64,000 nt of DNA from Methylocella tundrae (GTDB taxonomy: Bacteria; Pseudomonadota; Alphaproteobacteria; Rhizobiales; Beijerinckiaceae): NCBI RefSeq assembly GCF_038024855.1, contig NZ_CP139089.1, positions 3,561,501 through 3,625,500 on the forward strand. The letters run 5' to 3'. The position numbers and the translations under genes are program-made. Below the pieces are notes generated by a model. It had not been told where the DNA came from. It did not search any database and saw only the letters and a list, made by a program, of their open reading frames with translations. This document shows positions 4,723-23,821 of the stretch, piece after piece (position 1 is the stretch's first letter; each line of letters opens with the position of its first letter).

Positions 4723-4799
<77 letters not shown>

Positions 4800-6749: not shown

Positions 6750-6814
6750 CGCCTGCGAATTTCATCCTGAATGTCTGACGCCGAAGCAATCGGCAAAATT
6801 GGAGAACAACTCAT

Positions 6815-7180: not shown

Positions 7181-7191
7181 TCGGCTTGAGA

Positions 7192-7392: not shown

Positions 7393-7435
7393 GCATTTTC
7401 GGACGCAGAACCTCCGTCCGCTTTGCTGAAAATGC
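7393..7435. repeat. Two-tier palindromic element between convergent genes
   Basis: Outer arms GCATTTTC (7393-7400) and GAAAATGC (7428-7435) enclose inner arms CGGAC (7400-7404) and GTCCG (7416-7420). It sits one base past the stop of the minus-strand tlde1 gene. The GCATTTTC...GAAAATGC layout resembles dispersed intergenic palindromes of Rhizobiales and could serve as a bidirectional terminator. Confidence 0.5.
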
Positions 7436-7436
7436 C

Positions 7437-10012: not shown

Positions 10013-10236
10013 CGCCCTGCGCAATCTTGCCCGAGAGCTGGGAGTCCATCGGGCAATCGCCAGCGCAATAAATGGCGCCAACCAGAGCCGTCAGTCTCGC
10101 TTTGCCAATCTGAGTCGGCTTGAAACGGACGGCGAATACGGCCCCCGGTTGAAAAATCAGGCGTGAGCGCCACAAAAGGTTCGCGCAAGTTCGGTACGAA
10201 GCTGGCCTTTCCAATAGAGCATGGGGGATAAAAGCT

Positions 10237-11547
10237 ATGAAAAGACGCGCTGCGGGGCTCGCCCTGTTGATGTCATGCGTTGCCAACGGCGGGTTCGCCG
10301 CGGAGGGGGTCACTCCGACAGGCATTCCGCATCTGGACCATGTGTATGTAATCATGATGGAAAATCATGGCTACAGCCAAATTCTGAATAATCCGAATGC
10401 GCCCTTCACCAACAGGCTGGCGCTCGCTGCGAATCATGCGACCAATTATTTCGCTGTTGGTCATCCAAGCTTCACGAACTACCTGGAGGTCGTAGGCGGC
10501 TCGAACTTCGGCGTGCAAAGCGATAATGCGCCAAACTGGCACAACACGACTTGCACGGCCAACCTCGCCTCGCACGTGCCGGCGACCGACAATCCGCCAT
10601 CGCCGACAATTTGCCCGATTGCAGGCGAAGGAGTCGATGCGGCTACGCCCGTCATCGACACGACAAACGAGACTCAGGGACTGCCGGGCGATATCAACAT
10701 CGACGGACATCTCTCATTCCCGGCGGCCAGCCACACATTCGGCAAGACGATCGCCGACCAGCTCGTCGCGCGGCGGCTCACCTGGAAAAGCTATCAGGAG
10801 AATCTGCCTGCGAGCGGCGCCGATCAGGTCAACACGAGCGACGGCGTTTTCACCAACAACACGGATTTCAGCAAGATCCTGCCGACGCTCAATCCTCCGC
10901 TGACGTCAAGCAACATGGTTGCTCTCTATGCGGTGAAGCACAATCCCTTCGCCTACTTCAAGAATGTTCAAGAGGGATATGATCCAAACAACAGTCTGCA
11001 GAATATGGCCGGCTTCGACGGCGCAAGGGGCCTGTTTGCTGACCTTGGCGCAGGCGCTTCGCCGAACTTCTCGTTCATCGCGCCCAATCAATGCAACGAC
11101 CAGCATGGCCAAGGCAACGCCGGCGCGTTGTGCAATTATGACCCGAGCGACGTCGGCCTCCAGTCCGGCCTGAACCCGGCTCTGATCCAGCGCGGGGACG
11201 TTGCGTTACAAACGCTCGTCACGGCCATCCACCAGTCGCCCGCCTGGCGGCGGGGCAACAATGCGATTGTGATCGTGTGGGATGAAAACGACTATAGCAC
11301 GGCGCCGAACACCAACCAGGTTCTCCTGATTGTCGACACCAACTACGGGGCCGCAGGCGTCAAGAGCTCGCGCTTCTATACGCATTTCTCTTTGCTTAAA
11401 ACGCTTGAGGCGGGCTTCGGGCTTCCCTGTCTGAACCATGCCTGCGACTCGAACGCGGCGGTGATGTCGGATCTGTTCGCCGCTGGTCATAATCGCGGCC
11501 ACGACCACGACCACGACCACGACGACCACGATCACGACCGCTATTGA
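10237..11547 (+). CDS. Secreted phosphoesterase (acid phosphatase / phospholipase C-like) with His-Asp tail
   Basis: 436 residues with a cleavable signal peptide (about 1-21, ending GGFA). Family marks of the PF04185 phosphoesterases are HVYVIMMENHGYSQIL near the N terminus (metal-binding Glu-Asn), DGHLSFPAASHTFGKT, and VIVWDENDYS near the C terminus. Related proteins are metal-dependent acid phosphatases or phospholipases C in the periplasm or outside the cell. GGGGGATAAAAGCT precedes the ATG. The last 19 residues are almost only His and Asp (HDHDHDHDDHDHD), an addition beyond the conserved domain that looks metal-binding. Substrate not determinable. Confidence 0.83.
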   Translation: MKRRAAGLALLMSCVANGGFAAEGVTPTGIPHLDHVYVIMMENHGYSQILNNPNAPFTNRLALAANHATNYFAVGHPSFTNYLEVVGGSNFGVQSDNAPNWHNTTCTANLASHVPATDNPPSPTICPIAGEGVDAATPVIDTTNETQGLPGDINIDGHLSFPAASHTFGKTIADQLVARRLTWKSYQENLPASGADQVNTSDGVFTNNTDFSKILPTLNPPLTSSNMVALYAVKHNPFAYFKNVQEGYDPNNSLQNMAGFDGARGLFADLGAGASPNFSFIAPNQCNDQHGQGNAGALCNYDPSDVGLQSGLNPALIQRGDVALQTLVTAIHQSPAWRRGNNAIVIVWDENDYSTAPNTNQVLLIVDTNYGAAGVKSSRFYTHFSLLKTLEAGFGLPCLNHACDSNAAVMSDLFAAGHNRGHDHDHDHDDHDHDRY

Positions 11548-11566
11548 GCGAACGTAAGGCTTAAGG

Positions 11567-11598
11567 GCGGCGCGCGCCTTGCACCAGGCGCGCGCCGC
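11567..11598. terminator. Bidirectional terminator-like hairpin
   Basis: Perfect 12-bp arms GCGGCGCGCGCC (11567-11578) and GGCGCGCGCCGC (11587-11598) around an 8-base loop, lying between the convergent phosphoesterase and cyclopropane synthase genes. No T-tract, but extremely stable. Confidence 0.65.
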
Positions 11599-12863
11599 TA
11601 TTCGCCGGCCTCCGACAAGGTGGACGCAGCTTCGCGGCGGCGCAGATCCGCTTCCGCGCGCGTGATGTAGTCGCGCGTCAGCGGCACGGCGTCCAGCCTC
11701 TTTGCGAGCTGGACCTGAAAAACGACAAGGCCTTCATATCGGAAGGCGGCTTCCGACCCCGCGAGGTAAAGCTCCCACATGCGGCAGAAGCGTTCATCAT
11801 AGATCGCTTTTGCCTGTTCGCGCCGCGCCAGAAAGCGCTCCCGCCAGGCTTTGAGTGTTTCGGCATAATGGAGCCGTAAAACTTCAAGGTCCGTGACGAT
11901 GAGAGAGCTTTGCTCGATCGCCGGCAGGATTTCGGAAAGCGAGGGGATATAGCCCCCTGGGAAAATATATTTGCCGATCCATGGATTGGTCGCGGCGGGG
12001 CCCGGTGCGCGGCCGATCGTGTGCACCAGGGCGACGCCATCCTCATTGAGAAGCTGCGCGATCTTGCGGAAATACGCGTCGTAATTGGCAATGCCCACAT
12101 GCTCGAACATGCCGACCGAAACGACGCGGTCGAAACGCCCCTCGACCTCGCGATAATCCAGCATGCGGAAGTCCGCCGCCAGGGGACCGAGAGCCGCGGC
12201 GCGCTGCCGGCTCACCTCGAACTGCGCCTTGGACAGTGTGAGGCCCGTGACGCTGGCGCCGCAAAAACGCGCGAGATAATTGGCAAGCCCGCCAAAGCCG
12301 CTGCCGATGTCGAGAACGCTCGCGCCGGGACCGGCGACGAGCTTTGCCGCGATGTGCCGTTTTTTTGCAAGCTGCGCATCCTCGAGACTTTCGCCGTCGC
12401 TCTCGAAATAGGCGCAGGAATACTGCATGTCGCCGTCCAGAAAGAGCTCGTAGACGCGAACGTCGAGATCGTAATGATGCGCGACGTTTCGCCTCGCGCG
12501 CAGGGCGTCGTTCGCCCGCGCGAGCCGGCGCAGAGCCGCGCGCGCTTCCTGCAGAAGGCGGACCCAGCCAAACCCGGCGGGCGAAGGGCCAGCGTCCGCG
12601 CGCATCAGATTTTCGGAGGCGAGCGCCACCACGTCGTAGAGGGAGCCCTCGATCACCTCGACGCGGCCGTCCGTGAAGAGTTCGCCGAAGCGCAATTCAG
12701 GATCGATCATGAAGAGGATTTGCGCGTTGCGATCGTTGAACCGCACCGCCAACTTTTTGCCCGAACCGTCGCCGACGGTGAAGCGGCGTCCGTTCGCTGC
12801 GACAACATCGAGCGTCCCGAATTTGATCAGACCAGCAAAAAAAGCGCCAAATATCTTGTCCAT
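11598..12863 (-). CDS. Cyclopropane-fatty-acyl-phospholipid synthase family methyltransferase
   Basis: 421 residues. Uses S-adenosylmethionine to add a methylene bridge across double bonds of membrane phospholipid acyl chains. An N-terminal lipid-binding-like region (about 1-115) precedes the methyltransferase domain: HHYDLDVRVYELFLDGDMQYSCAYF, the SAM site VLDIGSGFGGLANYLA, GLTLSKAQ, and VGMFEHVG before the bicarbonate-site region. IGKYIFPGGYIPSLSEI is characteristic. The length fits the CFA family. It is convergent with the phosphoesterase and not in an operon. Confidence 0.9.
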   Translation of the reverse strand: MDKIFGAFFAGLIKFGTLDVVAANGRRFTVGDGSGKKLAVRFNDRNAQILFMIDPELRFGELFTDGRVEVIEGSLYDVVALASENLMRADAGPSPAGFGWVRLLQEARAALRRLARANDALRARRNVAHHYDLDVRVYELFLDGDMQYSCAYFESDGESLEDAQLAKKRHIAAKLVAGPGASVLDIGSGFGGLANYLARFCGASVTGLTLSKAQFEVSRQRAAALGPLAADFRMLDYREVEGRFDRVVSVGMFEHVGIANYDAYFRKIAQLLNEDGVALVHTIGRAPGPAATNPWIGKYIFPGGYIPSLSEILPAIEQSSLIVTDLEVLRLHYAETLKAWRERFLARREQAKAIYDERFCRMWELYLAGSEAAFRYEGLVVFQVQLAKRLDAVPLTRDYITRAEADLRRREAASTLSEAGE

Positions 12864-13179
12864 TCGTCTGACCCGGGTTCACGTGGATCCGATTGAGCCC
12901 GCACGATGAGCCGACCCGCCATTCGAGACCGCATAGCAAAACGTGCGCCGTCACGACCGCCGAGCTTTGGCTTGAGTGACAGGCGCGCCTCTAGTGTTAA
13001 TACAATCAGCGCGATAGCAAAAAAGTTCCGGTCCCGCCTGTCAAAATCACGCAGCCAGAATTTGGCTCCCTCCGTCTGCTCGATCCAGGGGCCGAGTATG
13101 TCGAGGCGCGCAACGCCGGCCGGGCAGATGCGGCCGGCCCGGCTCCGGTCGCCGCTCACAATCGTCGCTGAGCGATCGC
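12864..13179. other. Left edge of the accessory region
   Basis: About 316 bases without an intact gene. The part nearest the methyltransferase holds its promoter. From about 13019 rightward there is a minus-strand transposase remnant (described separately), and the plasmid replication-initiator relic starts at 13180. No direct repeat marking an insertion boundary was found by eye. Confidence 0.4.
13019..13105 (-). mobile_element. IS256-type (mutator) transposase remnant
   Basis: On the minus strand the translation from about 13102 reads DILGPWIEQTEGAKFWLRDFDRRDRN. WIEQTEGAKFWL is a hallmark of IS256/mutator transposases just after their catalytic-core region. The similarity fades at both sides after about 25 codons, and no catalytic residues or terminal repeats are left. 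It is a scrap only. Confidence 0.55.
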
Positions 13180-13983
13180 GTGCCGATGTCCGCACACCGC
13201 GACCCTGCCGAGCGCCAGCAGCTCGACCTGTTTCGCGCCTTGCCTGGCCGCATGGCGCCGCGCGACGCGCAGGACCTGTTGTCCTGGCCGTTCTTCAGCC
13301 TGTCCAAGTCGCGACGCATCCAGCCGATCGATTTCCGGACGATCGAGGTGACAATCCGAGTCGAGGCGACGCAAGAACACGGCATGGCGACCATCTGGGA
13401 CGCCGACGTGCTGATCTGGGCCGCTTCCCAGATCGTCGAGGCGCCATGGCCTGATGACCTCCCGCCTGATGACGGCGACGCCCTATGAAATCCTCGCCTT
13501 CATCGGGCGTGGGGACTCGCTTCGCGACGATGATCGCCTGAAGGCCGCATTGGACCGGCTGCAGGCCACGACGATCGCGACCTCCATCCGCCAGCCGACC
13601 GGGCGTCGCCGGCGCCGCTTCTCCTGGATCAACGAATGGAAGGAGCGGCTCGACGCCAATGGCCGCCCACGTGGGATCGAATTGATCCTGCCGGAGGTTC
13701 TACGCCGGCGTCATGAACGACGCCTTCGTGCTCACCATCGACCGCGCCTATTTCGATCTGACGGGCGGATTGGAGCGCTGGCTCTATCGCCTGGCGCGCA
13801 AGGCGGCCGTCAATAGAAGGGCTGGAGCTTCGACCTCCCGCATCTGCGTCTCAAATCCGGCGGCCTGTCTTCTCTGCGGCGCTTCGCCTTTGAACTGCGT
13901 CGAATCGTCAGCCGCCAACCGCTACCCGCTATCGGCTCGGCCTCGAAGCCGCCGCCGACGGGACACCGCGCCTCAGCTTCGCA
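13180..13983 (+). pseudogene. Plasmid replication initiator protein A (RPA/RepA family), frameshifted relic
   Basis: Opens as a normal initiator: DPAERQQLDLFRALPGRMAPRDAQDLLSWPFFSLSKSRR...HGMATIWDADVLIWAASQIVE (frame 1, to about 13440). It then continues in frame 2 (TSRLMTATPYEILAFIGRG...FSWINEWKERLDANGRPRGIELILPE, to about 13697), frame 3 (AFVLTIDRAYFDLTGGLERWLYRLARK, to about 13810), frame 2 (WSFDLPHLRLKSGG...RFAFELRRIVSRQPLP) and frame 1 (YRLGLEAAADGTPRLSFAP, to 13983). At least four frameshifts are needed, so it is dead, yet nearly the whole length of the family is still recognisable. These initiators belong to plasmids and integrative elements of Rhizobiales. Confidence 0.85.
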
Positions 13984-14052
13984 CCCAGCGATGAGGGCAA
14001 AGCCGCTGCCGTCCGCAAGCCGCGAGCCGATGCGGAGCGCAACCGCATTCGC

Positions 14053-14568
14053 TTGCTCGAAACGGCGAAGGCCGCTTTCGCCGAAAAGGGATCCGGCGCC
14101 AGCCTTGATGAGATCGCCCGGATCGCCGGCGTCGGGGCCGGGACTCTCTACCGCCATTTTCCCACCCGCGACGCGCTGGTCGCGGCGGTCTACCGCAACG
14201 AGACCGAGCAGCTTGTCGCCGCCGCCGGCCGCCTCGCGGAGACGCAGCCTCCAGTGACGGCGCTGCGTGAATGGCTGCTGCTGTTCGTGGACTACATCGC
14301 CGCCAAGCACGGGATGTACGAACTGCTCAATTCGATTGTTGGCGGCACGTCCGATCTGTACTCGGCGTCTACTGCGCAGGTGAAACAGGCGATCGCGAAG
14401 CTGGTCGATCGCGCGGTCGCCAGCGGCGACATTCGTCTGGACCTTGATCCGCTCGACCTGCTGCGCGCGATCGCCGGCGTTGCGAACATAGGCTTGGGGG
14501 CCGATGGCGAGCAGGCGGCCAAACGTCTGGTTGACATCCTGATCGCGGGCGTTCGGACCCGCACGTGA
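14053..14568 (+). CDS. TetR/AcrR-family regulator with damaged or missing start
   Basis: TetR helix-turn-helix ASLDEIARIAGVGAGTLYRHFPTRDALV followed by an SbtR-like ligand domain (HGMYELLNSIVGG...LDLLRAIAGVANIGLG). Family similarity begins upstream, at RKPRADAERNRIRLLETAKAAF, but that frame has no ATG or GTG back to the stop at 13891. It runs in frame into the tail of the RepA relic. The only start is TTG 14053, which would remove part of helix 1 and has no ribosome site. ATG 13991 exists one frame away, so a single-base indel after a former ATG is likely. It may be non-functional. The next gene is convergent. Confidence 0.6.
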   Translation: MLETAKAAFAEKGSGASLDEIARIAGVGAGTLYRHFPTRDALVAAVYRNETEQLVAAAGRLAETQPPVTALREWLLLFVDYIAAKHGMYELLNSIVGGTSDLYSASTAQVKQAIAKLVDRAVASGDIRLDLDPLDLLRAIAGVANIGLGADGEQAAKRLVDILIAGVRTRT

Positions 14569-14712
14569 GACGTCTCAGCATAGATCGCCGCGGCGATAAC
14601 CGGGAGCGCAAGCGCATCCGCCATAAGCCCTGCGAGTCCCGCCCTGAACCCGGCGGCATTTGCATCGAGGGTCGTGGCGAGGCCCGGCATTCAGGCGCAT
14701 CGACAACGAGGA

Positions 14713-15573
14713 TCATGATTGTTCGCCTACCGGCGCCGAACCGATCAACGAGCTGATCTTCTCTGCGTCCGCCGGCGTCGCCGGATTATAGACCACCATG
14801 CCGAGATCCGGTCTGCCGTCGACGGCGAACGCTGAATATTCGAAGGCGATCGGGCCCAGAACCGGATGCCGTATGTGCTTGACGCCCTCGCCATGGCTGT
14901 GGACGTCATTGTCGCGCCACATCGCTTTGAACTCGGGACTGAGCCGGCAGAGCTCGTCGACGAGAGGCTGCACCTCCGCCGCCGCGCCCGCACGCGCCGC
15001 GTCCACCCTGAACGCGCCCACCACGAACCGCGCCACGCTTTCCCAGTCATATTGCGCGGCGCGGACGCGCGGATCGAGGAATATGAAGCGCAGGACATTG
15101 CGTTGCTCCGGCGGCAGCGATCCATAGTCGGTCAGAATCACGGTCGCCGCCCGGTTCCAGGCGACGACGTCCCATGTGGCGGTCCGAATGAGGGCGGGGC
15201 TCGGCTCCAGCGCGTCGAGCACGCGTTGCAGTCGTGGCGTGACGCCTTCGTTTTTCTGGTACCGCGCCTCGGGCGGCCGGCCGAGGCCGAGCAGGAAGAG
15301 ATGCTCGCGCTCGACATCCGTCAGCATCAAGGCGCGGGCGATCCGGTCGAGCACGTCGGCCGACGCCGCGCCGCCGCGCCCCTGCTCCAGCCATGTGTAC
15401 CAGGTCGGGCTGATGTTGGCGCGCTGCGCCACTTCCTCGCGGCGCAGCCCTGGCGTGCGGCGACGCTCCGGCGGAAAGCCGAACGCGGCCGGATCGAGCT
15501 TGGCGCGGCGGTCCTTCAGATAGGACCCAAGCCGATTCTCGTTCGTGACGTGCTCGTCCATCCTGTTAGTCAT
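14713..15573 (-). CDS. XRE-type regulator with MmyB/MLTR ligand-binding domain
   Basis: 286 residues. The N-terminal helix-turn-helix (about 12-70) shows RRTPGLRREEVAQRANISPTWYTWLEQGR, the characteristic MmyB-like sequence. It is followed by the MLTR ligand-binding domain (LIRTATWDVVAWNRAA, EQRNVLRFIFLDP, HPVLGPIAFEYSAFAVDGRPDLGMVVYNPAT). Members typically sit divergently from an oxidoreductase gene and control it, exactly the arrangement here with the SDR gene at 15654. ATG 15573 is used; ATG 15561 is an alternative. Confidence 0.87.
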   Translation of the reverse strand: MTNRMDEHVTNENRLGSYLKDRRAKLDPAAFGFPPERRRTPGLRREEVAQRANISPTWYTWLEQGRGGAASADVLDRIARALMLTDVEREHLFLLGLGRPPEARYQKNEGVTPRLQRVLDALEPSPALIRTATWDVVAWNRAATVILTDYGSLPPEQRNVLRFIFLDPRVRAAQYDWESVARFVVGAFRVDAARAGAAAEVQPLVDELCRLSPEFKAMWRDNDVHSHGEGVKHIRHPVLGPIAFEYSAFAVDGRPDLGMVVYNPATPADAEKISSLIGSAPVGEQS

Positions 15574-15653
15574 CTTACTATGATAAGGTCACTACTTTAC
15601 CAGAATAGACCACAGGCAGATATCTGTCTCCAACGAAATCTGGAGACCTGCTC
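15574..15653. promoter_or_regulatory. Divergent promoter/operator between MmyB-type regulator and SDR gene
   Basis: 80-base intergenic region, more AT-rich than its surroundings, containing a perfect 10-bp palindrome CAGATATCTG (15617-15626) and flanking GGTC...GACC half-sites. It must contain promoters for both genes and is the natural operator for the regulator. Exact binding site not proven. Confidence 0.45.
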
Positions 15654-16538
15654 ATGCGTGTGTTTGTCACCGGCGCCACCGGTTTCATCGGCTTGCCCGT
15701 CGTCAAGGAGTTGATCGCCGCCGGACATGAAGTCCTTGGCATGGCCCGTTCGGACGAAGGGGCAAAATCCTTGGCCGCCATTGGCGCGGAAGTTCATCGC
15801 GGCTCGCTTGAAGACCTTGATGGCTTGCGTAAGGGGGCAACCGCTTCGGAGGCCGTCATTCACCTGGCCTTCATCCACGACTGGTCAAATTTTGTAGAGA
15901 GTTGTGAAGTCGATCGCCGCGCCATTGAAGCCTTGGGTTCCGTTCTGGCTGGCTCCGACAAGCCCCTCATCGTTACAGGGGGATTGGCGGGATTAGCCGG
16001 GCCCGGTCAGGTTGCGATCGAAGATGATGTGGTGCCGCCGGATTTTCCATTCCCCCGTGTTTCGGAACAGACGGCTCTGTCGCTGAAGGGCGTCCGCGCC
16101 TCGGTCGTGCGTCTTCCCCAGGTCCACGACCCGGTCAAGCAGGGTCTCACCACCCCCGCGATCGAGGTCTACCGCGAAAAGGGCGTGTGCGCCTATGTCG
16201 GCGACGGACTCAACCGCTGGCCGGCGGCCTATGTTCTCGATGTCGCGCGTCTCTACAGGCTGGCGATCGAAAAGGCTGAGCCGAACGCAAAATATCACGC
16301 GGTCGCGGAAGAGGGTGTCTCGATGCGCGATATTGCCGAAGCTATTGGCCGGCGCCTGAAGCTGCCGGTCAAATCCATCGCCCCGGAAGAGGCCCAGGCC
16401 TTTTTTGGCTGGCTCGGCATGTTTGCCACCTACGATATGCCCGCGTCCAGCGCGCAGACGCGGAAGCAGCTCGGATGGGAACCGACTGGACCTGGGTTGA
16501 TCGCCGATCTCGAACAACTGCGCGTATCCGATAGCTGA
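15654..16538 (+). CDS. NAD(P)-dependent epimerase-like SDR oxidoreductase
   Basis: 294 residues of the extended short-chain dehydrogenase type. The N-terminal dinucleotide site is VTGATGFIGLPVVKEL (about 5-20). Further marks are HLAFIHDWSNF and, near the C terminus, VSMRDIAEAIGRRLKLP and QTRKQLGWEPTGPGLIADLEQ. The classical YxxxK pair is not evident; the corresponding stretch reads RVSEQTALSL. So it may be an atypical NAD-binding reductase of the NmrA/epimerase type. GGAG precedes the ATG. It is probably the target of the divergent MmyB-type regulator. Substrate unknown. Confidence 0.82.
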   Translation: MRVFVTGATGFIGLPVVKELIAAGHEVLGMARSDEGAKSLAAIGAEVHRGSLEDLDGLRKGATASEAVIHLAFIHDWSNFVESCEVDRRAIEALGSVLAGSDKPLIVTGGLAGLAGPGQVAIEDDVVPPDFPFPRVSEQTALSLKGVRASVVRLPQVHDPVKQGLTTPAIEVYREKGVCAYVGDGLNRWPAAYVLDVARLYRLAIEKAEPNAKYHAVAEEGVSMRDIAEAIGRRLKLPVKSIAPEEAQAFFGWLGMFATYDMPASSAQTRKQLGWEPTGPGLIADLEQLRVSDS

Positions 16539-16569
16539 CGTTCGCAAGGACAATCCGAGGCAGGCAAGA

Positions 16570-17796
16570 TCAAACCGAAGGCCGTGGTCTCGGGCGGGCC
16601 AAGGCGAAAACGGCCACGATCGCCGCAGCAAAGCCCGAAGCCGCGCCGACGCCGAGCGCCCAGCGTGGCCCGTAATTGTTGGCCACCCAACCGACGATCG
16701 GCGCTCCGATCGGCGTGCCCCCAAGCGCAACGCCGACGCGTAGCGCCATCACCCGCCCGCGCATGGCGGGCTCTGTCGAAAGCTGCATCAGGCTGTTCGT
16801 GGTATTGGTGAAGGTCAGCGCGGCCACGCCGATCACGACGAGGGCGCCGGCGAACAACCAATAGTTCGGCGCAATGGCGGCCAGCGTGCAGCCGAGCCCG
16901 AATACGCCGGCGCCGACCGGCAGCAAGCCGAACCGCGGCTTATCACGACCGGCGCCCAACAGCGCACCCGCCACCGTGCCGATGGCCATGATCGACGACA
17001 ACAGGCCATATCCGCGGGCGTCGGCATGGAAAACGCTGACCGCCATGGTCGAGATGAAGATCGGGAAGTTCAGGCCGAACGTTCCGATCAGGAACAGCAT
17101 GAGCAAAACAGCCTTGAGGTCCGGGCGACCCCATACATAGCGGAATCCCTCGGTGAAACTTCCCTTGGAGCGGTGGGCCCTGGCGTTCGGACGAAGCTCG
17201 GCGACGCGCAGGAACGCGAGGGAGATCAGCACCGCAACGAAAGAGGCGCCATTGATCAGGAAAGCCCAGCCCGTGCCGATCGCGGCGATGATCACGCCGG
17301 CGAGCGCCGGGCCGATCATCCGCGCGGCGTTGAACGAGGTCGAGTTGAGCGCCACAGCATTATGCAGGTCTTCATCGCCGACCAACTCCGCGACGAAGGT
17401 CTGACGCACCGGCGCATCGAACGCCGCCGCGCTGCCGAACAAAAAGGCGAAGATGTAGACATGCCAGAGCTGGACGACGCCGGCGACGGTGAGAAGCCCC
17501 AGCATCAGAGCGAGAGCGCCCATCGTCGCCTGTGTGGCGATCAGGAGCTTACGCTGATTGAAATGGTCGGCGGCGAAGCCCGTCCAGGGTAACAGGAGGA
17601 ACTGTGGACCGAACTGCAGCGCCATCACCAGACCAACAGCCGAAGCGTCGTGATGGGTGAGCTGGGTGAACACCAGCCAGTCCTGGGCCGTCCGCTGCAC
17701 CCAGGTGCCGACGTTGGAGACGAACGCGCCGGCCGCCCAGACTTGATAGTTGAAACCTCGCAGCGATCGGAAGACGCCCCAAACAGGAGCCTTCAT
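16570..17796 (-). CDS. MFS transporter (EntS/MFS_3 type exporter)
   Basis: 408 residues with about twelve membrane segments. FVSNVGTWVQRTAQDWLVFTQLTHHDASAVGLV and LLPWTGFAADHFNQRKLLI are typical of the MFS_3 group, related to EntS and other drug or siderophore exporters. It is the last gene of a four-gene minus-strand operon (MarR, isochorismatase-like hydrolase, small membrane protein, this gene). Its ATG overlaps the preceding stop by four bases (ATGA). It probably exports a toxic small molecule sensed by the MarR protein (inference). Confidence 0.87.
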   Translation of the reverse strand: MKAPVWGVFRSLRGFNYQVWAAGAFVSNVGTWVQRTAQDWLVFTQLTHHDASAVGLVMALQFGPQFLLLPWTGFAADHFNQRKLLIATQATMGALALMLGLLTVAGVVQLWHVYIFAFLFGSAAAFDAPVRQTFVAELVGDEDLHNAVALNSTSFNAARMIGPALAGVIIAAIGTGWAFLINGASFVAVLISLAFLRVAELRPNARAHRSKGSFTEGFRYVWGRPDLKAVLLMLFLIGTFGLNFPIFISTMAVSVFHADARGYGLLSSIMAIGTVAGALLGAGRDKPRFGLLPVGAGVFGLGCTLAAIAPNYWLFAGALVVIGVAALTFTNTTNSLMQLSTEPAMRGRVMALRVGVALGGTPIGAPIVGWVANNYGPRWALGVGAASGFAAAIVAVFALARPRPRPSV

Positions 17797-18122
17797 GGAT
17801 GCTCCGGCAGGTTGCCGCCATGGAAGCGGCCAAAGTGCCGGGCGGAAAAAAGCGCGATCAGGAGCGCGCCAGCGCCGAATGCGGCGACGTCACCCGTGTT
17901 CCGCAACCCAAAATCGCCGACGCAACAAACGAGCAGATAGCCGATGACGATGTTGAAAAAGCTCCAGAGCACGTTGACAGTCGACGAGGAGAGCCCTTGT
18001 CCCGGCGGCTTGGCGAAGGGACTTTGAAACGGCCTGCCCATCATGCCGCTGACGAAATGGGGTATGGCGTTCGCGAGAAAGACGCCGCCAAAGAAATAGG
18101 ACAGGAGAACAAGCCACGGCAT
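17793..18122 (-). CDS. Small conserved membrane protein
   Basis: 109 residues starting MPWLVLLSYFFGGVFLANAIPHFVSGMMGRPF. About three hydrophobic segments (1-20, 50-70, 80-95), with FQSPFAKPPGQGLSSSTVNVLWSFFN in between. The frame extends further upstream, but ATG 18122 follows the stop of the hydrolase after one base, fitting an operon. Function unknown; proteins of this appearance are often found next to transporters or small regulators. Confidence 0.72.
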   Translation of the reverse strand: MPWLVLLSYFFGGVFLANAIPHFVSGMMGRPFQSPFAKPPGQGLSSSTVNVLWSFFNIVIGYLLVCCVGDFGLRNTGDVAAFGAGALLIALFSARHFGRFHGGNLPEHP

Positions 18123-18123
18123 T

Positions 18124-18687
18124 TCAGGCGCTCCTTGGCGGCAGGAGATCGATGATCTCTCGGCTTGTCCCGGTTTCGCCGAGCCTTGGGAAGACATTCT
18201 TGATGCTGTAATCGTGAGCCTCGGGACGCCTGTCGGTCATGACGTCGGTGGCGAGGGTGACGTTGAATCCTTGCTCATAGGCTTGTCGCGCCGTCGCCTC
18301 GACGCCGGTTCCGGTGGCCACGCCCGCGATCACAACTTGGGTGACGCCCCGCGCTTTCAACCTGGCCTCGAGATCGGTGCTCGCGAACGCGCCCCAGGTC
18401 CGCTTGGTCACCACGATGTCGCCGGGTTGCTGATTCAGCTCCGGGATGAGGTCGGTCCACCCGTCCGGACGGGGTCCCGTTGGGCGCGGCTGTTCCGTCC
18501 GGCCTGGCGCGCCTCCGGCGACGTTGACGAGCACGACCGGCAGGCCGCGCTCGCGGAAGGCGTCGGCCAGCGTGCGAGCCCGCCTGATAACTTCGCCAAT
18601 GGTGTGGCTGGCAAGCAGGCCGATGACGCCGTTCTGCAGGTCGACGATGATCAGGGCGGTATTCGGGTCGAGCGTGGTCAGCGCCAT
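18124..18687 (-). CDS. Isochorismatase-family hydrolase lacking the catalytic cysteine
   Basis: 187 residues. The fold is clear: TALIIVDLQNGV (Asp16), IVVTKRTWGAF (Lys95), and VIAGVATGTGVEATARQAYEQGFNV. In active amidohydrolases of this family the last motif is GVAT..CVE..AR; here Gly128 replaces the nucleophilic Cys, so classical hydrolysis through a thioester is not expected. A sub-group with the same loss exists to my knowledge. GAGAGGAGAC precedes ATG 18687, chosen over an extended upstream start. It lies 58 bases after the MarR gene and one base before the membrane-protein gene, so it belongs to the same operon. Confidence 0.85.
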   Translation of the reverse strand: MALTTLDPNTALIIVDLQNGVIGLLASHTIGEVIRRARTLADAFRERGLPVVLVNVAGGAPGRTEQPRPTGPRPDGWTDLIPELNQQPGDIVVTKRTWGAFASTDLEARLKARGVTQVVIAGVATGTGVEATARQAYEQGFNVTLATDVMTDRRPEAHDYSIKNVFPRLGETGTSREIIDLLPPRSA

Positions 18688-18745
18688 GAAGTCTCCTCTC
18701 AAAATCTTGGACTGCTCGATCGCGCGCGAGCCGCCAACGGCTCGC

Positions 18746-19210
18746 TCAGTCTTCGACGAGCCGTTTGAGCAGCTCGACGGCCTCCGCAAGTCTGTCCTGT
18801 TCCTCCGGCGACAGACGCGCCTGGAGAGTGCGCGTCAACCAATCCTGCCGCGCCGCGCGTCCCTCCTGGACCCATTGCCGGCAGCTGTCCGTGAGCGAGA
18901 GCAGGGTCTGCCGCCCGTCCGCTGGGTCTGGCGCTCCGCTCACCAAGCCAGCGCTCTCCAGCACGGCGATGACCGGAGCTACCGACTGCGGCCGCATTCC
19001 CTCGGCCCGTGCAAGGCTCGAAGCCGTCGCGGGGCCGTCCTTTTCGAGGCGTAGCAGCACAGAGACCTGGGATGGCGTCAGGTCGCCGACATGCGCCTGC
19101 TCGCGCAAGCGGCGTTTCAGCTTGCCCAGCAAGGCGCGGAGGTCCTGCGCCAAAACTGAGGCGCGCATGGCTTGGTGATTGTCCGGCGCGACGTCCATGT
19201 CCGACTGCAT
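18746..19210 (-). CDS. MarR-family regulator
   Basis: 154 residues with the winged helix LTPSQVSVLLRLEKDGPATASSLARAEGMRPQSVAPVIAVLESAGLV (about 43-90) followed by the wing APDPADGRQTLLSLTD. First gene of the hydrolase/membrane/MFS operon, so probably an autorepressor that releases in response to an exported compound. ATG 19210 touches a large inverted repeat and has no ribosome site; ATG 19198 is a plausible alternative. Confidence 0.88.
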   Translation of the reverse strand: MQSDMDVAPDNHQAMRASVLAQDLRALLGKLKRRLREQAHVGDLTPSQVSVLLRLEKDGPATASSLARAEGMRPQSVAPVIAVLESAGLVSGAPDPADGRQTLLSLTDSCRQWVQEGRAARQDWLTRTLQARLSPEEQDRLAEAVELLKRLVED

Positions 19211-19212
19211 AT

Positions 19213-19244
19213 CAGATAGACAGCTAAACTGTAAAGCCTATCTG
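19213..19244. promoter_or_regulatory. Nested inverted repeat, probable MarR operator
   Basis: CAGATAG (19213-19219) pairs with CTATCTG (19238-19244), and inside it ACAG (19220-19223) pairs with CTGT (19229-19232). The site abuts the MarR start codon and is AT-richer than the surroundings. Autoregulation by MarR at such sites is the family norm. Confidence 0.55.
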
Positions 19245-19460
19245 TGTAGTCTGTCTGGGCATCCTCAGTTGCCGGAGGACGCGATTGGCCGCGCCGCGGT
19301 CGAGCACGAAGCTCGCCGCTGTGACGCGCGCCCAAATCCGCGACTTACGCCCCTTCAAGTATTTTTTCGCGCCGGCTCGACCGGGTAGGAACGGGTATCC
19401 GGACGGCTTGCAATCTGCGAATTTCGATCCCGACCTCTCCTTTCAGACAAGGAGAGGCGC

Positions 19461-19615
19461 GTGTCGGCAACGAAGATTCTCTGGGGCCAGGTTCTCACCG
19501 TCTTCGCCATTGTCCTCGTGACGACATGGACCGCGACGGAGTGGACGGCTTGGCGGGGGCGCTCGGCTTTTCCAAACCGGACCTTTCGTCAGGACCACCC
19601 ATGGCCGCATCGCCG
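19461..19615 (+). pseudogene. N-terminal fragment of a TraG/VirD4-type coupling protein
   Basis: AAGGAGAGGCGC precedes GTG 19461, and the frame reads MSATKILWGQVLTVFAIVLVTTWTATEWTAWR: the conserved first membrane segment of conjugal-transfer TraG proteins of Rhizobiales elements. After about 30 codons the similarity is lost in this frame. A neighbouring frame briefly reads ALGFSKPDLSSGPP, similar to the next part of TraG, so a frameshift comes before complete truncation. The Walker motifs and the rest of the ~650-residue protein are absent; the convergent GST gene ends at 19616. Confidence 0.65.
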
Positions 19616-20428
19616 TCACGCTCTGTCGAACAGAACTCCTTTGAGCAGCCGGAGGATATGCGCCCTCGTCCAAATGTCCGCGGCGGCGAAGCTGGGGCGC
19701 GCCTGCATGGCGCGCCAATAGCGCTCAAGCGCCGGCCGCCCCGATAATTCGGCGCCAAGGCCGATGAACTCGACGCGAGCGAGGAACACAGTGAGGACCG
19801 TATCGGCGACGCCATAAGCGGGCGGCGTCAGCGTCGCGCGGCCGTCGCTGAGCGCGCGCTCCATCCGATCCAGAATGTCGATCGCCTGGGCCCGGCGGCG
19901 CTCCGCAAGCCGTCCCGCCGTGGCCGGATCGAAGATGCGGAGCCGCTCCGCGAAGACGTCGGCCCGCGCTCGATAAACCGCTGCAAGATCGGGATTCTCG
20001 GCGGCGTGCTTGAGCAGGCGGCGGTGGACCCTCGCCAGCACTTTTGGGACCATGATCCGCGCCAGCCGGCTACGGGCGAGAAAAATCCCGAAGGTCAGCT
20101 CTTCGATTGGAAGGGCGTAATGGAGATCGAGCCAGGCTTTGGCCTCCGCGCCCAGCGTCGCCTCGTTGACGCCAAGCGCATATTCGGCGATGTCGCGGCT
20201 CTGATCGAGAACGCGGTCCGCCAGCACAAGGGTCGGCACGGTCATGTTCGGATTGAGCCGCACATAGTCCGGTCGTTCCTGGCTGAGCCTGAAATGGATG
20301 TCGACGAAGATGCGCTCATAGGCGATGGCGCCCTCGGCGAGCGCGAGGCGCGCGATCATCGAATAATAGGAGGGCGGCGCGTGATAAAGGCGCGGCTTCA
20401 CGCCGCCGGTTTCGCTGGCCTCCGTCAT
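19616..20428 (-). CDS. Glutathione S-transferase family protein
   Basis: 270 residues. The N-terminal thioredoxin-like domain starts RLYHAPPSYYSMIARLALAEGAIAYE and contains LNPNMTVPTLVLADRVLDQSRDIAEY (cis-Pro in VPTL and the glutathione-contacting Ser). An all-helical C-terminal domain ends RPALERYWRAMQARPSF. Glutathione conjugation or a related thiol reaction in the cytoplasm is expected; substrate unknown. GCGAGGAGCCGCC sets the start at ATG 20428. It sits inside the accessory block but is intact. Confidence 0.83.
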   Translation of the reverse strand: MTEASETGGVKPRLYHAPPSYYSMIARLALAEGAIAYERIFVDIHFRLSQERPDYVRLNPNMTVPTLVLADRVLDQSRDIAEYALGVNEATLGAEAKAWLDLHYALPIEELTFGIFLARSRLARIMVPKVLARVHRRLLKHAAENPDLAAVYRARADVFAERLRIFDPATAGRLAERRRAQAIDILDRMERALSDGRATLTPPAYGVADTVLTVFLARVEFIGLGAELSGRPALERYWRAMQARPSFAAADIWTRAHILRLLKGVLFDRA

Positions 20429-20754
20429 GGCGGCTCCTCGCTGGAAGGGAAAAAAATCCATATTCCGCGCGGAGAAAAAACGCTAGCGCCCAGCCAGCAT
20501 TCCGCAGCTTCTGTTCAGCCGTCGTTGAAACCGGTGACCGGCATCGGCGGCTCTGCGCCGATGCCGGTCGAAGCCAATCGAAGCCGCGCAGCCTGCAAGC
20601 AGACATCCCAATTGCAACGGCGCTACTGACCACTTTCGGCATAGCGCTCGTAAGCAAGCCATAGCGTCCGTTTAGCTTCTTGGATTTCTTACGTCTTCGG
20701 ACTTAGTGACTACCTTCAACTCCCCGGACATCACCTCCTTAACGATCGCCTTGA
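20429..20754. other. Non-coding stretch with a 13-bp perfect hairpin
   Basis: No gene recognised. GACCGGCATCGGC (20536-20548) and GCCGATGCCGGTC (20557-20569) form a perfect 13-bp stem with an 8-base loop and no T-tract. From about 20640 the base composition drops visibly toward AT, continuing into the orphan ORF at 20755-21048, which suggests DNA of different origin. Confidence 0.5.
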
Positions 20755-21048
20755 CTAACGACCTACAATCGTTCGAGTTTCGGTAGTAACGTTTACGTCG
20801 TACGACATGTTGATCCCATCTATTGGAAACCGATGGCCGTTGAGCCCGATCGTGTGATTTGGCAAGGACACGTAATGGGTCAAACCACTCTCACTGGTGC
20901 TCCCATGTGGTAATGCCTGTCGGAGGTCCTCGTAGGAAAGCAATGGAGTTCCTTCTGGATCGAAGATTATCTTGTCATGGGTAGAAAAATCGGCATTCAT
21001 TTCAATACGATCGCCTTTATCGAAGCGCTTGGGTGCGAACCAATTCAT
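20755..21048 (-). CDS. Orphan hypothetical protein in a low-GC patch
   Basis: 97 residues (MNWFAPKRFDKGDRIEMNADF...). Soluble, mixed composition, no signal peptide or recognised domain. Codon use is clearly less GC-rich than the neighbours, and no strong ribosome site precedes ATG 21048. Could be a real acquired gene or a fragment of a larger one. Not recognised. Confidence 0.4.
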   Translation of the reverse strand: MNWFAPKRFDKGDRIEMNADFSTHDKIIFDPEGTPLLSYEDLRQALPHGSTSESGLTHYVSLPNHTIGLNGHRFPIDGINMSYDVNVTTETRTIVGR

Positions 21049-21238
21049 ATTGTTTGGAATTCGATGGGTTTCTCTCGGTGAACCCCGATCGAGCCATCGA
21101 AATAAATCCTTGAGCCGTGCAATTTAGCTCGGTCTCGAACGCCACCGCTGGCCGGATAGTGAGCCTGTCGAGCAGGGCGCACACAGGACAAACATGACGC
21201 AGCAGGACGCCGGTTAAATGACATAGGTCGACTTCGCA

Positions 21239-21874
21239 TCAAGTGTGCTGGTAGATGAAGGCCGCCACTGTCCGCTCAACTCTGGCGTTGACTTCCTCGG
21301 CGGTGGGCTGGGGGCGAATTCTCAGCAAGAGTTCCATCAGGAAGTCGCCGACAGCCGTAAAAAACAGCATGCTGGAAGCTTCTTCGGCATTGTCGATCTT
21401 CAACAATCCGAGAGCCGCCTGCGCGGCCAGCCACTGTTCCAGCGCCCCTTTGCCGCGTCCAAGACCCTGCCGCTCCAGGGCCGAGACGATTTCCCCGGAG
21501 CAGGACGTCTCGGCGATCAGAAGGCGCAGCATCGCCACTTGCCGCTCCGTCAGCGCGAAATTCACCTGTCGAGACAGGACATCGGTCAGTACATCCTTCG
21601 GCGAGCGGCCGTCGGAATCGATCGGGACCGTATATGGAGCGAACCAGTCTGTCAGCAGCGCGTCAAGCAGCCCGGATTTCCCCGAGAACACCTGATAGAC
21701 AGTTTTCTTTGACATGCCGGCGCACCGTGCGACGTCCTCCACAGTCGTCGCGTGATAGCCTTTGCGCAGGAAGAGCTCGGCCGCCGCGGATATGAGCTTC
21801 GCGCGGCGTTCGTCTTCGAGCATCTGGCGCGGCCGGCCGACGCCCGCCGGTTTGGTCTGCAAATCAGTCGCCAA
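21239..21874 (-). CDS. TetR/AcrR-family regulator of a lost efflux operon
   Basis: 211 residues. Helix-turn-helix: RRAKLISAAAELFLRKGYHATTVEDVARCAGMSKKTVYQVFSGKSGLLDALL (about 23-75), then a helical ligand domain of the AcrR/TetR_C type. It is divergent from the 45-codon stub of an efflux adaptor at 21982, the standard layout of an RND pump repressor, but the pump genes are gone. The regulator itself looks intact. Confidence 0.85.
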   Translation of the reverse strand: MATDLQTKPAGVGRPRQMLEDERRAKLISAAAELFLRKGYHATTVEDVARCAGMSKKTVYQVFSGKSGLLDALLTDWFAPYTVPIDSDGRSPKDVLTDVLSRQVNFALTERQVAMLRLLIAETSCSGEIVSALERQGLGRGKGALEQWLAAQAALGLLKIDNAEEASSMLFFTAVGDFLMELLLRIRPQPTAEEVNARVERTVAAFIYQHT

Positions 21875-21981
21875 GTGAGCCTCTTTTGCTGTGCGGCGCC
21901 GAAACGGGCCGAGTCGTCCCCCAACGTGCGCTGTTGCTCGAATCGTTTCGCTTGGTCATCGGCTGAATAGGGCGAAACTCC

Positions 21982-22119
21982 ATGAACATTTCTGGCGCTT
22001 CTGCACGGCCCTACGGCGTCATCGGTATGATGGCTCTCGGCCTGGGTCTGGCCGGGTGTGACGAAGCGCGGACACAGGCCGGCCCGTCGGCGCCGCCGAA
22101 GCCGTCGGTCGACGCATGA
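21982..22119 (+). pseudogene. Truncated lipoprotein start of an RND efflux periplasmic adaptor
   Basis: 45 codons: MNISGASARPYGVIGMMALGLGLAGCDEARTQAGPSAPPKPSVDA then TGA. A lipoprotein leader with lipobox LAGC (Cys 26) is followed by the Ala/Pro linker that normally leads into PPxVxV and the barrel-sandwich domain of AcrA/HlyD-type adaptors. The frame stops where that domain should start. With the TetR regulator divergent at 107 bases, this looks like the stump of a deleted efflux operon. Confidence 0.6.
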
Positions 22120-22338
22120 CGCGATTGAAGTCCACCTCCGCCATCCCCCGTCCGCGGCATTTTGCCGAGCGGTTGTTCATTTCTCTCGCACGATGTGCGT
22201 CATGGCCATCTGCCGGATCGAGACGTTCGCCATAGCGGATTCCGCGCCGCTCGCGCACACTCTCAACGGCCGTATCACAACATTGAGCCCTTCGCTGAAA
22301 ACCTTGCAACCCCTCGACAACCCCTTCGGCCCGAGGTT
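22120..22338. other. Non-coding debris
   Basis: About 220 bases between the adaptor stub and the 18-bp repeats. Open frames are present but carry no recognisable family sequence. Likely scrambled mobile-element DNA. Confidence 0.4.
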
Positions 22339-22381
22339 GTCACCCATGTCTCAGGGACGTTCCGTCATCTATGTCTCAGGG
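22339..22381. repeat. Two 18-bp near-identical direct repeats, possible IS end
   Basis: GTCAYCYATGTCTCAGGG occurs at 22339-22356 and 22364-22381, 25 bases apart with two differences. Doubled ATGTCTC(A/C)GG units followed by GGGCCGGACA resemble the terminal region of IS481-type elements as I remember them, but no transposase is left here. Confidence 0.4.
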
Positions 22382-22397
22382 CCGGACAAGGGAAATC

Positions 22398-22437
22398 TGG
22401 AGCGGGCGAAGGGATTCGAACCCTCGACGCCAACCTT
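22398..22437 (-). tRNA. 3' fragment of a tRNA-Gly(GCC) gene (attachment-site scar)
   Basis: The minus strand reads AAGGTTGGCGTCGAGGG then TTCGAATCCCTTCGCCCGCTCCA. This is the 3' side of the anticodon stem, the variable region, the T-arm, the acceptor 3' strand CGCCCGC, discriminator T and an encoded CCA. It matches the alphaproteobacterial tRNA-Gly(GCC) 3' half except for about one base. The D-arm, anticodon and 5' acceptor are missing, so it is not a functional tRNA. Such 3' fragments are left where elements integrate in tRNA genes. Confidence 0.8.
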
Positions 22438-22775
22438 ACGTGACGGGGCCGGCGCCTTGATCGGCACGCTCGCGCCCAAATCGGATCAATCTTTCGCGGT
22501 CCAGGGAAGAAATCTTGCATTCGCCAAGTTCGCGCTGCAGCAGGTCGAGGGTCGCGGCCTTCCGACCGGAAGGGCGTCTTGCCCACCGCCGCCATATCCT
22601 CCATATGGAGGTCGATCAATTCGCCGAAGGTTTTGACCCTGGCGACGCGCGAGCTTGAGGGCGTCTCGCCGCGGTCGGCTTGGACCTCCGCTTCCAGAGC
22701 CCAGCGCCGGGCGTCCCCACGCCGCAGAAACGTCTCGCTTGCATAACGTGCCTTGCGACGAATTTTGACTCGCCA
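22436..22775 (-). pseudogene. Tyrosine integrase relic truncated at the tRNA-Gly fragment
   Basis: The minus-strand translation WRVKIRRKARYASETFLRRGDARRWALEAEVQADRG...KTFGELIDLHMEDMAAVGKTPFRSE is the arm-binding and start of the core-binding domain of a tyrosine recombinase. After one frameshift it continues KAATLDLLQRELGECKISSLDRERLIRFGRERADQGAGPVT and stops at 22436-22438, inside the tRNA-Gly fragment. The catalytic domain (Arg, His-x-x-Arg, Tyr) is wholly missing. The 5' end of the frame runs into a tandem repeat and overlaps the dusA start, so its true start is uncertain. Confidence 0.72.
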
Positions 22776-22776
22776 G

Positions 22777-22806
22777 GAACTAACGATCTGAGAACTAACG
22801 ATCTGA
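22777..22806. repeat. Perfect 15-bp tandem repeat upstream of dusA
   Basis: GAACTAACGATCTGA occurs twice without spacer (22777-22791 and 22792-22806), 13 bases before the dusA ATG. It marks the junction between the integrase relic and dusA and may be a duplication scar or a recombinase arm site. Confidence 0.7.
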
Positions 22807-22819
22807 TAGTACTGAAAAA

Positions 22820-23821
22820 ATGAAGCAATATCAAGCACATAGATTTGCCGTGGCGCCTATGATGGATTGGACCGACCGTCATTGCCGGTTTTTCCATCGC
22901 CTTCTGTCGCGGCGCGCGCGGCTTTATACGGAGATGGTGACGACCGCGGCGGTGCTGCATGGTCAGCGCGAGCGCCTGCTCCGCTTCGACGGCGCCGAGC
23001 ATCAGGTGGCCGTGCAGCTCGGCGGCTCCGACCCCGCGCATCTTGCGCAATCGGCGCGGATTTGCGCCGATTTCGGCTATGACGAGATCAATCTCAATGT
23101 CGGCTGTCCGTCCGAGCGCGTGCAGAACGGCGCTTTCGGCGCCTGCCTGATGCGCGAGCCGGCGCTGGTCGGCGATTGCGTCGCCGCCATGAAGGCGCAA
23201 GTTTCCATTCCGGTGACGGTCAAATGCCGCATTGGCGTCGACGATCAGGAGCCGGCGGAGGCGCTCGGCGCGTTGGCGGAGGTCGTCATCGCCGCAGGAG
23301 CCGACGCTCTGATCGTCCATGCGCGGAAAGCATGGCTGAAGGGCCTGTCGCCTAAAGACAACCGGCATGTTCCGCCTCTTGATTATGGTTTGGTCCATGC
23401 GCTTAAACAGCGTTTTCCGCATGTGCCGATCGCGATCAATGGCGGGCTTGCGACGCTCGACCAGATGCGTGCTGAGCTCGATTTCGTCGATGGTGTGATG
23501 ATCGGCCGCGCCGCCTATCAGGACCCGGCGCTGCTGCTGGCCGTCGATCCGCTGTTTTTCGGCGAAGAGGCGCCTTTCAGTGACGCGGAGCAGGCGATTT
23601 TGGCCTTCGTTCCCTATGTCGAGGCGCGGCTCGCGGAGGGGATTCCGCTCAACGCCATGACGCGGCATGTCCTCGGCCTTTTCAACGGAAGGCCCGGGGC
23701 CCGCGCGTGGCGGCGCCACCTCTCGACGGAAGCGGTCAAGCCCGGCGCCGATGCGCGGGTTTTACGCGCGGCCCTTGTCCATATAGATCCGCGCCGGCGC
23801 CCCATGAACGAAGCGGCCTGA
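22820..23821 (+). CDS. dusA: tRNA-dihydrouridine(20/20a) synthase DusA
   Basis: 333 residues. FMN enzyme that reduces uridine 20/20a of tRNA with NADPH. Marks: VAPMMDWTDRHCRFFHRLLS near the N terminus, INLNVGCPSERVQNGAFGACLM with the catalytic Cys (about 99), and the DusA-specific HARKAWLKGLSPKDNR. The C-terminal helical domain ends KPGADARVLRAAL. The 5' end of dusA is a known integration target of some genomic islands, which fits the integrase relic directly in front. Confidence 0.95.
   Translation: MKQYQAHRFAVAPMMDWTDRHCRFFHRLLSRRARLYTEMVTTAAVLHGQRERLLRFDGAEHQVAVQLGGSDPAHLAQSARICADFGYDEINLNVGCPSERVQNGAFGACLMREPALVGDCVAAMKAQVSIPVTVKCRIGVDDQEPAEALGALAEVVIAAGADALIVHARKAWLKGLSPKDNRHVPPLDYGLVHALKQRFPHVPIAINGGLATLDQMRAELDFVDGVMIGRAAYQDPALLLAVDPLFFGEEAPFSDAEQAILAFVPYVEARLAEGIPLNAMTRHVLGLFNGRPGARAWRRHLSTEAVKPGADARVLRAALVHIDPRRRPMNEAA

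Follow-up and report, generated by a model that had tools for sequence, protein, structure and literature searches.

The region between cfa and dusA

The window is the whole stretch of DNA analyzed here, 64,000 nucleotides of the Methylocella tundrae genome (G000:C3:3561501-3625500; 4.42 Mb in three contigs), and our subject is the block of mobile-DNA remnants that lies in it between a cfa-type cyclopropane synthase gene and dusA. From left to right, one meets cfa, a scrap of an IS256-family insertion sequence (IS), a fossil of a RepA initiator gene, a TetR gene, a block of cargo genes, the leader and 5' stub of traG, a glutathione S-transferase (GST) gene, a hypothetical open reading frame (ORF), a second TetR gene, the right end of an IS481-family element, the 3' fragment of a tRNA-Gly gene, an integrase stub, and dusA (Table 1). 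All six kinds of mobile-DNA debris claimed for this block in the original prediction are present; its RepA, TraG, and integrase pieces each have matches in related sequences.

The conjugative backbone can be recognized from two fossils. Pfam RPA (PF10134) matches the forward strand in three frames (13180-13485, E 1.4e-17; 13454-13813, E 2.7e-21; and 13713-13991, E 2.5e-10) with in-frame stops, and the DNA is 75% identical to repA of plasmid pCHQ1 over 742 alignment columns and 73% identical to repA of Methylocystis parvus pMpar-1, as one would expect of the broken RPA-type initiator that had been proposed. The traG stub, also foreseen, is 76% identical in DNA to the first ~105 bp of pCHQ1 traG and 74% identical to that of pMpar-1, and residues 1-26 of its protein match pCHQ1 TraG at 85%. 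In the window and in both plasmids, repA and traG lie on the same strand in the same order. The plasmids have genes for DUF2840, signal peptidase, lytic transglycosylase, and relaxase between them, pCHQ1 also parA; the pMpar-1 relaxase is annotated as a DUF3363 protein, which we take to be a relaxase. In a blastn comparison of window 12.8-23.0 kb with the stretches fetched from pCHQ1 and pMpar-1, nothing matched except repA and the 5' end of traG. Of a complete RPA/TraG/Trb element, the window thus holds an RPA-type RepA and lacks ParA, relaxase, a complete TraG, and the Trb genes.

A draft genome of the same species (G014) shows how the backbone was cut. Its contig C82 matches RepA, ParA, DUF2840, S26, lytic transglycosylase, relaxase, TetR, and TraG in that order and is largely complete; its traG match begins at residue 43, and ParA is matched as two pieces. 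Window 13097-13961 is 85% identical in DNA to its RepA region. The first TetR gene of the window is 95% identical in DNA to positions 10753-10122 of L121 (the fetched part of C82), where it adjoins the traG leader. Because window positions 14621 and 19251 both map to the same base, 10122 of L121, a 4.63-kb insert must separate TetR from traG in the window. About 7.7 kb of C82, from RepA to TetR, is missing, and the join lies in the first codons of TetR: the RepA 3' end enters the TetR frame (window 13930-14020) and replaces the start region present in the sister element. The claim of intact regulator and cargo genes therefore stands as far as open reading frames go, except that this first TetR gene apparently lacks its own start region; it may start at TTG 14053, or the gene may be dead. 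In another relative (G252), RepA, DUF2840, S26, lytic transglycosylase, relaxase, TraG, TrbB, integrase, and dusA follow one another within ~31 kb, and to judge from the comparison the ancestor of the window's element should have looked like this in order and strand.

The same draft genome shares window 4000-19411 at 96-98% DNA identity on contig C86, including the RepA fossil and the 14.6-19.2 kb cargo. At 124 bp before its end, C86 passes into sequence identical to the integrase on the dusA contig C80, the exact overlap being 127 bp. C80 carries trbB, ORFs in the same direction (of which trbB alone was tested for identity), a thiolase-like ORF recognized by eye, a tRNA-Gly 3' fragment, an integrase broken over two frames, and dusA. 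One reading is that G014 may hold two dusA elements in tandem. As the RepA fossil, the TetR fusion, and the cargo are common to both strains, they predate the split between them; the right-hand ends differ. A RepA fossil and cargo shared with the window, together with trbB and an integrase at dusA, bear out the proposal of a decayed integrative conjugative element (ICE) with an RPA-type RepA and TraG.

The integrase relic that had been reported at the right end was confirmed. It adjoins the dusA 5' end and keeps residues ~41-163 of a 383-residue tyrosine recombinase, and the catalytic domain (residues 205-371 in an intact relative) is unmatched there; PF00589 is present in all three relatives scanned. 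Since the relic ends before the catalytic domain, it is a remnant and not a functional member of the dusA-associated integrases (DAI), and excision or circularization with it would not be expected. Matches to the integrase occur in 41 genomes, its own included, of a 297-genome sample of the order. Six loci were fetched from the 40 others, and in five dusA lies ~150 bp away in the same divergent layout; the sixth is on a 12.7-kb contig with no dusA. The element of the window is therefore dusA-targeting, a known kind, and tRNA-Gly, considered as the attachment site, was ruled out on the same five of six loci. A Mesorhizobium plasmid copy, 94% identical to one fetched relative over residues 1-316 and then continuing in a second frame, is followed by a stretch of 72 bp resembling the 5' end of dusA. 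The attachment region in dusA may be taken as about 22850-22890, its exact place being estimated. Within the genus, a search with window DNA detected remains of the integrase at the dusA loci of 4 of 14 relatives. In one of these genomes (G005; L074 14200-14350 and 14620-14892), two integrase N-terminal stubs stand in tandem before dusA, which implies that the site has been reused.

Two further pieces lie between the backbone and the integrase. Window 21008-22289 matches contig C1 of a relative (G004) in four pieces of 61, 861, 163, and 191 alignment columns at 86-93%, and the next match there is a tRNA-Gly fragment (44 columns, 95%); all are in the same order, spread over 16 kb. From this collinearity, the 21.0-22.4 kb segment is what is left of a shrunken island associated with tRNA-Gly. 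ARAGORN and Rfam call a single tRNA in the window, a tRNA-Arg (4723-4799), which marks the tRNA-Gly piece as a fragment; the intact tRNA-Gly(GCC) that one was advised to look for elsewhere is at G000:C3:2851165. A second tRNA-Gly 3' fragment occurs in the same genome at C3:1452251 (L130 9252-9290) with, by eye, a short regulator-like ORF nearby, and is possibly another island end. Beside the window's fragment, the suspected IS481-type end was located: window 22294-22423 is 82% identical to positions 2501-2632 of a Methylocystis rosea locus (L007), and the last base of the IS is 9 bp from the TGG (the complement of CCA) of the tRNA fragment. Only the last ~95 bp of the element are there; a complete transposase and a left end were not matched in the window.

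The IS256 scrap, likewise predicted, was found by DNA search; two Mesorhizobium IS256 proteins and Pfam on one frame missed it. It is 77-82% identical to four places in three relatives' genomes and has a shorter match in its own genome. In two of the three fetched relatives' loci, the match lies inside an ORF with Pfam Transposase_mut (PF00872); no transposase ORF was seen in the third.

The small protein of the cargo block has no Pfam or NCBIfam match. As a part of the MarR-isochorismatase-MFS block, it is also seen in three relatives (G001, G013, and G005). At ~85% identity, 4.5 kb of the insert occurs elsewhere in G001, and parts of it in G013 and G005. The GST region (19605-20438) has 92% identical DNA in G005 and 85% in G001. 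Upstream of dusA, no synteny is generally conserved among the relatives, only island remains, plus a single match of 4 kb, between G014 and G012, and a few short ones. Farther to the left, window 4304-4492 matches many scattered places in many relatives at roughly 70-75% and resembles a dispersed intergenic repeat.

Table 1. Features of the cfa-dusA region in window coordinates
Feature	Position	Strand	Basis or remark
cfa-type cyclopropane synthase gene	11598-12863	-	PF02353, E 1.3e-83; left flank, outside the element; collinear on contig C86 of G014
IS256-family transposase scrap, 53 bp	13050-13102	-	DNA matches
RepA (RPA, PF10134) initiator fossil	13209-13961	+	Broken in three frames
TetR regulator of the ICE backbone	13990-14621; ORF 14053-14568	+	TetR_N, E 3.3e-12
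Inserted cargo block	14622-19250	mixed	Absent from L121
XRE/MmyB-like regulator	14713-15573	-	Cargo block
NAD epimerase/SDR (short-chain dehydrogenase/reductase)	15654-16538	+	Cargo block
MFS exporter	16570-17796	-	Cargo block
Small protein	17793-18197	-	Cargo block
Isochorismatase-like hydrolase	18124-18789	-	Cargo block
MarR	18746-19210	-	Cargo block
traG leader and N-terminal stub	19251-19569; coding part 19462-19570	+	87% to G014 C82
Glutathione S-transferase-like gene and flank	19606-20559	-	GST_N
tRNA-Gly-associated island remnant	21008-22289	-	Includes TetR gene 21239-21874
IS481-family right end (putative tRNA-homing lineage)	22294-22388	+	Match to M. rosea IS C-terminus and right end
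tRNA-Gly(GCC) 3' fragment	22398-22437	-	97.5% to intact tRNA-Gly(gcc), L002 1501-1540
Tyrosine-recombinase (dusA-targeting) N-terminal relic	22441-22838	-	Two frames; catalytic part not found
dusA	22820-23821	+	Dus, E 5.6e-80

IS481 relatives beside tRNA genes

The intact M. rosea relative encodes a transposase of 395 aa with helix-turn-helix (HTH), IS481 zipper, and rve domains; LZ_Tnp_IS481, rve, and rve_3 score above their cut-offs, and NF033577 reaches 216 bits (E 7.1e-64) against a cut-off of 224. The IS end was found in 18 genomes, the window's own included, of a 199-genome sample of the order. Among 30 fetched loci, again counting that of the window, a whole tRNA gene stands beside the IS in 20, at a gap of 9-10 bp in 17 and of 18, 7, and -16 bp in the others. 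A wider contig scan kept the best 80 of 165 relatives. Among the 71 that allowed a judgment, a whole tRNA faces the IS within 200 bp in 48, and at a spacing of 9-11 bp in 46 of these; the tRNAs span 23 isotype-anticodon classes. A tRNA in the opposite orientation within 200 bp downstream was seen at none of 72 loci (one more than the 71). The CCA-end motif TGG occurs at 9-11 bp in 64 of the 71, where by our estimate chance would supply it in roughly one in seven of the intervals searched. The copies are not all independent, as some belong to a single genome or a single insertion; the 72 downstream sequences include 64 distinct ones.

Target duplications and an empty site can also be examined. 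Three-base duplications occur in 14 of 39 flank pairs, against 30 of 1482 mismatched pairs; these counts leave out flank pairs that were repeats and 15 loci at which the left end was not clear. In Rhizobium leguminosarum (L250), the 1288-bp IS lies between ...ACACTT and CTTGAAAAATGG, and a relative without the IS (G337) reads ...ACACTTGAAAAATGG at the same junction. At that junction G337 has just a 3' fragment of tRNA-Arg, the whole tRNA being found on the same contig at a distance of 43 kb; the site looks as though it had been split by an island. One Rhodospirillaceae genome (CP030885; L229-L233, L235, and L237) contains seven copies that are near-identical; six of them occupy a different tRNA gene each, and the seventh stands at a truncated end. 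At two loci, inspection by eye shows an additional IS right end, either between IS and tRNA or just outside the IS (after the transposase stop in L249 and in the left flank of L235), which looks like repeated landings at one tRNA gene. The 3' fragment beside the IS copy on an M. rosea plasmid is presumably tRNA-Glu.

More distant members of the family provide a control. In eight genomes of the relatives found above, a tRNA stands within 60 bp at 19 of 23 loci whose identity is 50% or higher (two being one place); below 40% identity, the same genomes give none of six, and at only two of these does the DNA extend more than 38 bp past the match. A seventh such locus gave no alignment. Among 30 loci collected from a distant protein as the starting point, five of the seven with at least 60% identity to the M. 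rosea transposase face a whole tRNA and one a fragment. The remaining 23 have no tRNA; for 19 of them the DNA continues 700 bp or more past the match, which makes the count 0 of 19 judged. In a FastTree phylogeny of 86 proteins, all 54 rows labelled with a tRNA belong to a single clade of 70 (support 100), which also contains 11 rows lacking the motif and five not judged; outside are 13 without the motif, three not judged, and none with it. This tree carries a long-branch warning, and at least one row (L259) is mislabelled by the 200-bp limit.

The columns conserved near the IS ends are the CCA, on which the alignment was anchored, and the T-psi-C arm. Fixed spacing, a single orientation, and many isotypes imply recognition of a feature common to tRNA genes. 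Copies beside fragments suggest that the 3' 40 bp of tRNA DNA may be enough as a target, although these tRNAs could still have been complete when the IS inserted. The 1288-bp element showed no helper gene, short ORFs lying outside those listed, and target choice would have to be made by the transposase or a host factor. A structural model of the transposase has a mean pLDDT (predicted local distance difference test) of 68.5 and a pTM (predicted template modelling score) of 0.55. Its best Foldseek match is TnsB (7svw, E 1.5e-8), and IstA (8q4d) is also matched, with TM-scores (template modelling scores) of ~0.2-0.3. This supports a predicted transposase class only, the model being too weak to name a targeting domain.

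We lean, with reserve, toward reading this widespread single-gene IS481 clade as a self-contained tRNA-homing integrator in the following sense, taken as a whole. One DDE transposase, with neither TnsC/TnsD helpers nor a guide RNA, would recognize the acceptor/T-psi-C part of almost all tRNA genes and insert 9-11 bp beyond the CCA, even beside fragments, and its insertions would then mark and erode island junctions such as that of the window.

How the block may have formed

Comparison with related DNA shows the parts of the block, their order, the junctions, the adjacency to dusA, and the spacing between IS and tRNA. Very probably, the whole is a composite graveyard around dusA, made up of a decayed ICE, a piece of a tRNA-Gly island, and the end of a tRNA-homing IS481 element. 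An ICE of the RepA(RPA)-ParA-relaxase-TraG-Trb type would have entered the dusA 5' end by its own tyrosine recombinase, which reads away from dusA, and would have decayed in place. A deletion would have joined the 3' end of RepA to the TetR gene of the element, a block of cargo 4.6 kb long would have entered between TetR and traG, and further deletions would have reduced traG to a stub, removed the trb genes, and stripped the integrase of its catalytic half. Part of an island associated with tRNA-Gly, with the tRNA-Gly 3' fragment at its end, would have come to lie between the traG and integrase stubs, with the right end of an IS481 transposon beside the fragment, from a lineage that would insert 9-11 bp beyond CCA with a ~3-bp target duplication. 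We infer this order of events and, equally, recognition of acceptor/T-psi-C-arm DNA by the transposase.

The original prediction preferred a single ancestral element that eroded and that would account for all debris and cargo, which we now regard as unlikely. RepA, TetR, traG, and the integrase do fit one ICE, and that part of the idea holds; in G014, moreover, the tRNA-Gly fragment is directly beside the integrase and may have travelled with the element. The 21.0-22.4 kb segment and the 14.6-19.25 kb cargo stand apart, however: the former matches another island in G004, the latter is absent from the sister element on C82 and found elsewhere in G001, G013, and G005, and the simplest view of the IS481 and IS256 scraps is that they arrived later. 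Nor do the IS481 end and the tRNA fragment count as independent items of debris, as had been supposed, if the IS lineage homes to tRNA 3' ends. The opposite extreme, unrelated scraps gathered independently at a tolerant site with no resident ICE, could draw on the several kinds of scrap and on the integrase remains at relatives' dusA loci; yet order, strand, and exact junctions match a related backbone, the sister genome has the same RepA fossil and cargo, and the common TetR-traG junction disfavors it so strongly that we find it scarcely credible. A third alternative concerns the IS481-tRNA adjacency, which would reflect survival bias (other insertions being harmful) or the capture of islands with tRNA ends rather than target choice. 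Although tRNA ends are classic island sites and some copies are beside tRNA fragments only, this is very improbable in view of the 9-11 bp spacing over many isotypes, the lack of any oppositely oriented tRNA, the excess of three-base duplications over mismatched pairs, the locus with an IS-free relative, and the distant IS481 relatives of the same order that are not near tRNAs.

Several observations weigh against the composite history and the tRNA-homing lineage within it. No second dusA-derived repeat that would mark the left border of the element was found in window 1-22790, the 22.8 kb left of the integrase (substitutions allowed, plus blastn; none significant), and the same search gave no convincing second repeat in the fetched parts of G252 or G014. 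Since the draft contigs of G014 end within the element, part of its layout is deduced there, and its C82 copy can be called largely complete but not necessarily intact. The near-native spacing of RepA and traG has to be a coincidence, since different DNA now lies between them. The left flank is far from dusA in G001 (~440 kb) and in G013, hundreds of kb in each, which means that rearrangement also took part and that the two flanks do not form a single undisturbed core region. For the IS481 lineage, the same-genome control is weak, with only two distant copies having enough DNA beyond the match, and 11 of 65 labelled rows in the tRNA-homing clade lack the tRNA motif.

Comparison with known systems

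The backbone resembles the RPA-RepA/ParA/TraG/Trb plasmids and ICEs such as pCHQ1 and pMpar-1, in which homologous repA and traG follow one another on one strand; unlike these, the window lacks everything from parA to the relaxase, most of traG, and trb, and has cargo in their place. Tn4371-like ICEs are presumably of a similar RPA-RepA/TraG/Trb type. The ICE remnant is a decayed member of the known dusA-specific island class, an assignment judged from gene position at dusA. Like the window, those islands have a tyrosine recombinase beside the dusA 5' end, where they attach, and they normally carry two 21-bp repeats; conjugation cargo is reported in some, and alphaproteobacteria are included (PMC4482086). 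In the window, by contrast, the integrase is a stub without its catalytic domain, no second repeat was found, and the RPA-RepA backbone has decayed in place.

As an ICE fossil, the block is ordinary but unusually readable: from a sister element of the same species, one can tell by which deletions and insertions it came apart. Of greater consequence is the IS481 part. DDE transposons that insert with strict site specificity are best known where helper proteins or guides take part, as in Tn7-like elements. If true, a one-gene element able to find the 3' end of nearly any tRNA would offer a simple model of how targets are recognized, and such homing could explain IS scraps at island boundaries and would be a safe-site strategy comparable to that of the yeast and amoeba retrotransposons near tRNA genes. 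We found no description of tRNA homing by an IS481 clade among the papers listed in searches of an open-access library, ISfinder and subscription papers being outside the search, and the word "tRNA" is absent from the main text of PMC10045372 and PMC9208149.

Target preference as such is already known in the IS481 family, since the Pseudomonas fluorescens SBW25 IS481 enters repetitive extragenic palindromic (REP) sequences (PMC11708052). The two share the HTH, IS481 leucine zipper, and rve core, a length of ~1.3 kb, and a site preference, but the present clade targets tRNA 3' ends at 9-11 bp and not REP. Its target duplication of ~3 bp also differs from the 6 bp made by most IS481 members, which range from 2 to 15 (PMC10045372). 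ISMex2 of Methylobacterium has 16 copies, all chromosomal (PMC2680597). Tn7-like and CRISPR-associated transposon (CAST) elements at tRNA attachment sites (PMC11406308) likewise use a DDE (TnsB-like) transposase and insert beside tRNA genes, whereas the present element is 1.29 kb long, has one known gene and no helper gene observed, and takes many tRNA types as its target. Dada elements (PMC3706591) are also DNA transposons specific for tRNA genes and target tRNA and snRNA genes, but they are eukaryotic and insert inside one tRNA type per family, whereas the IS described here is bacterial, inserts outside the gene, and accepts many types.

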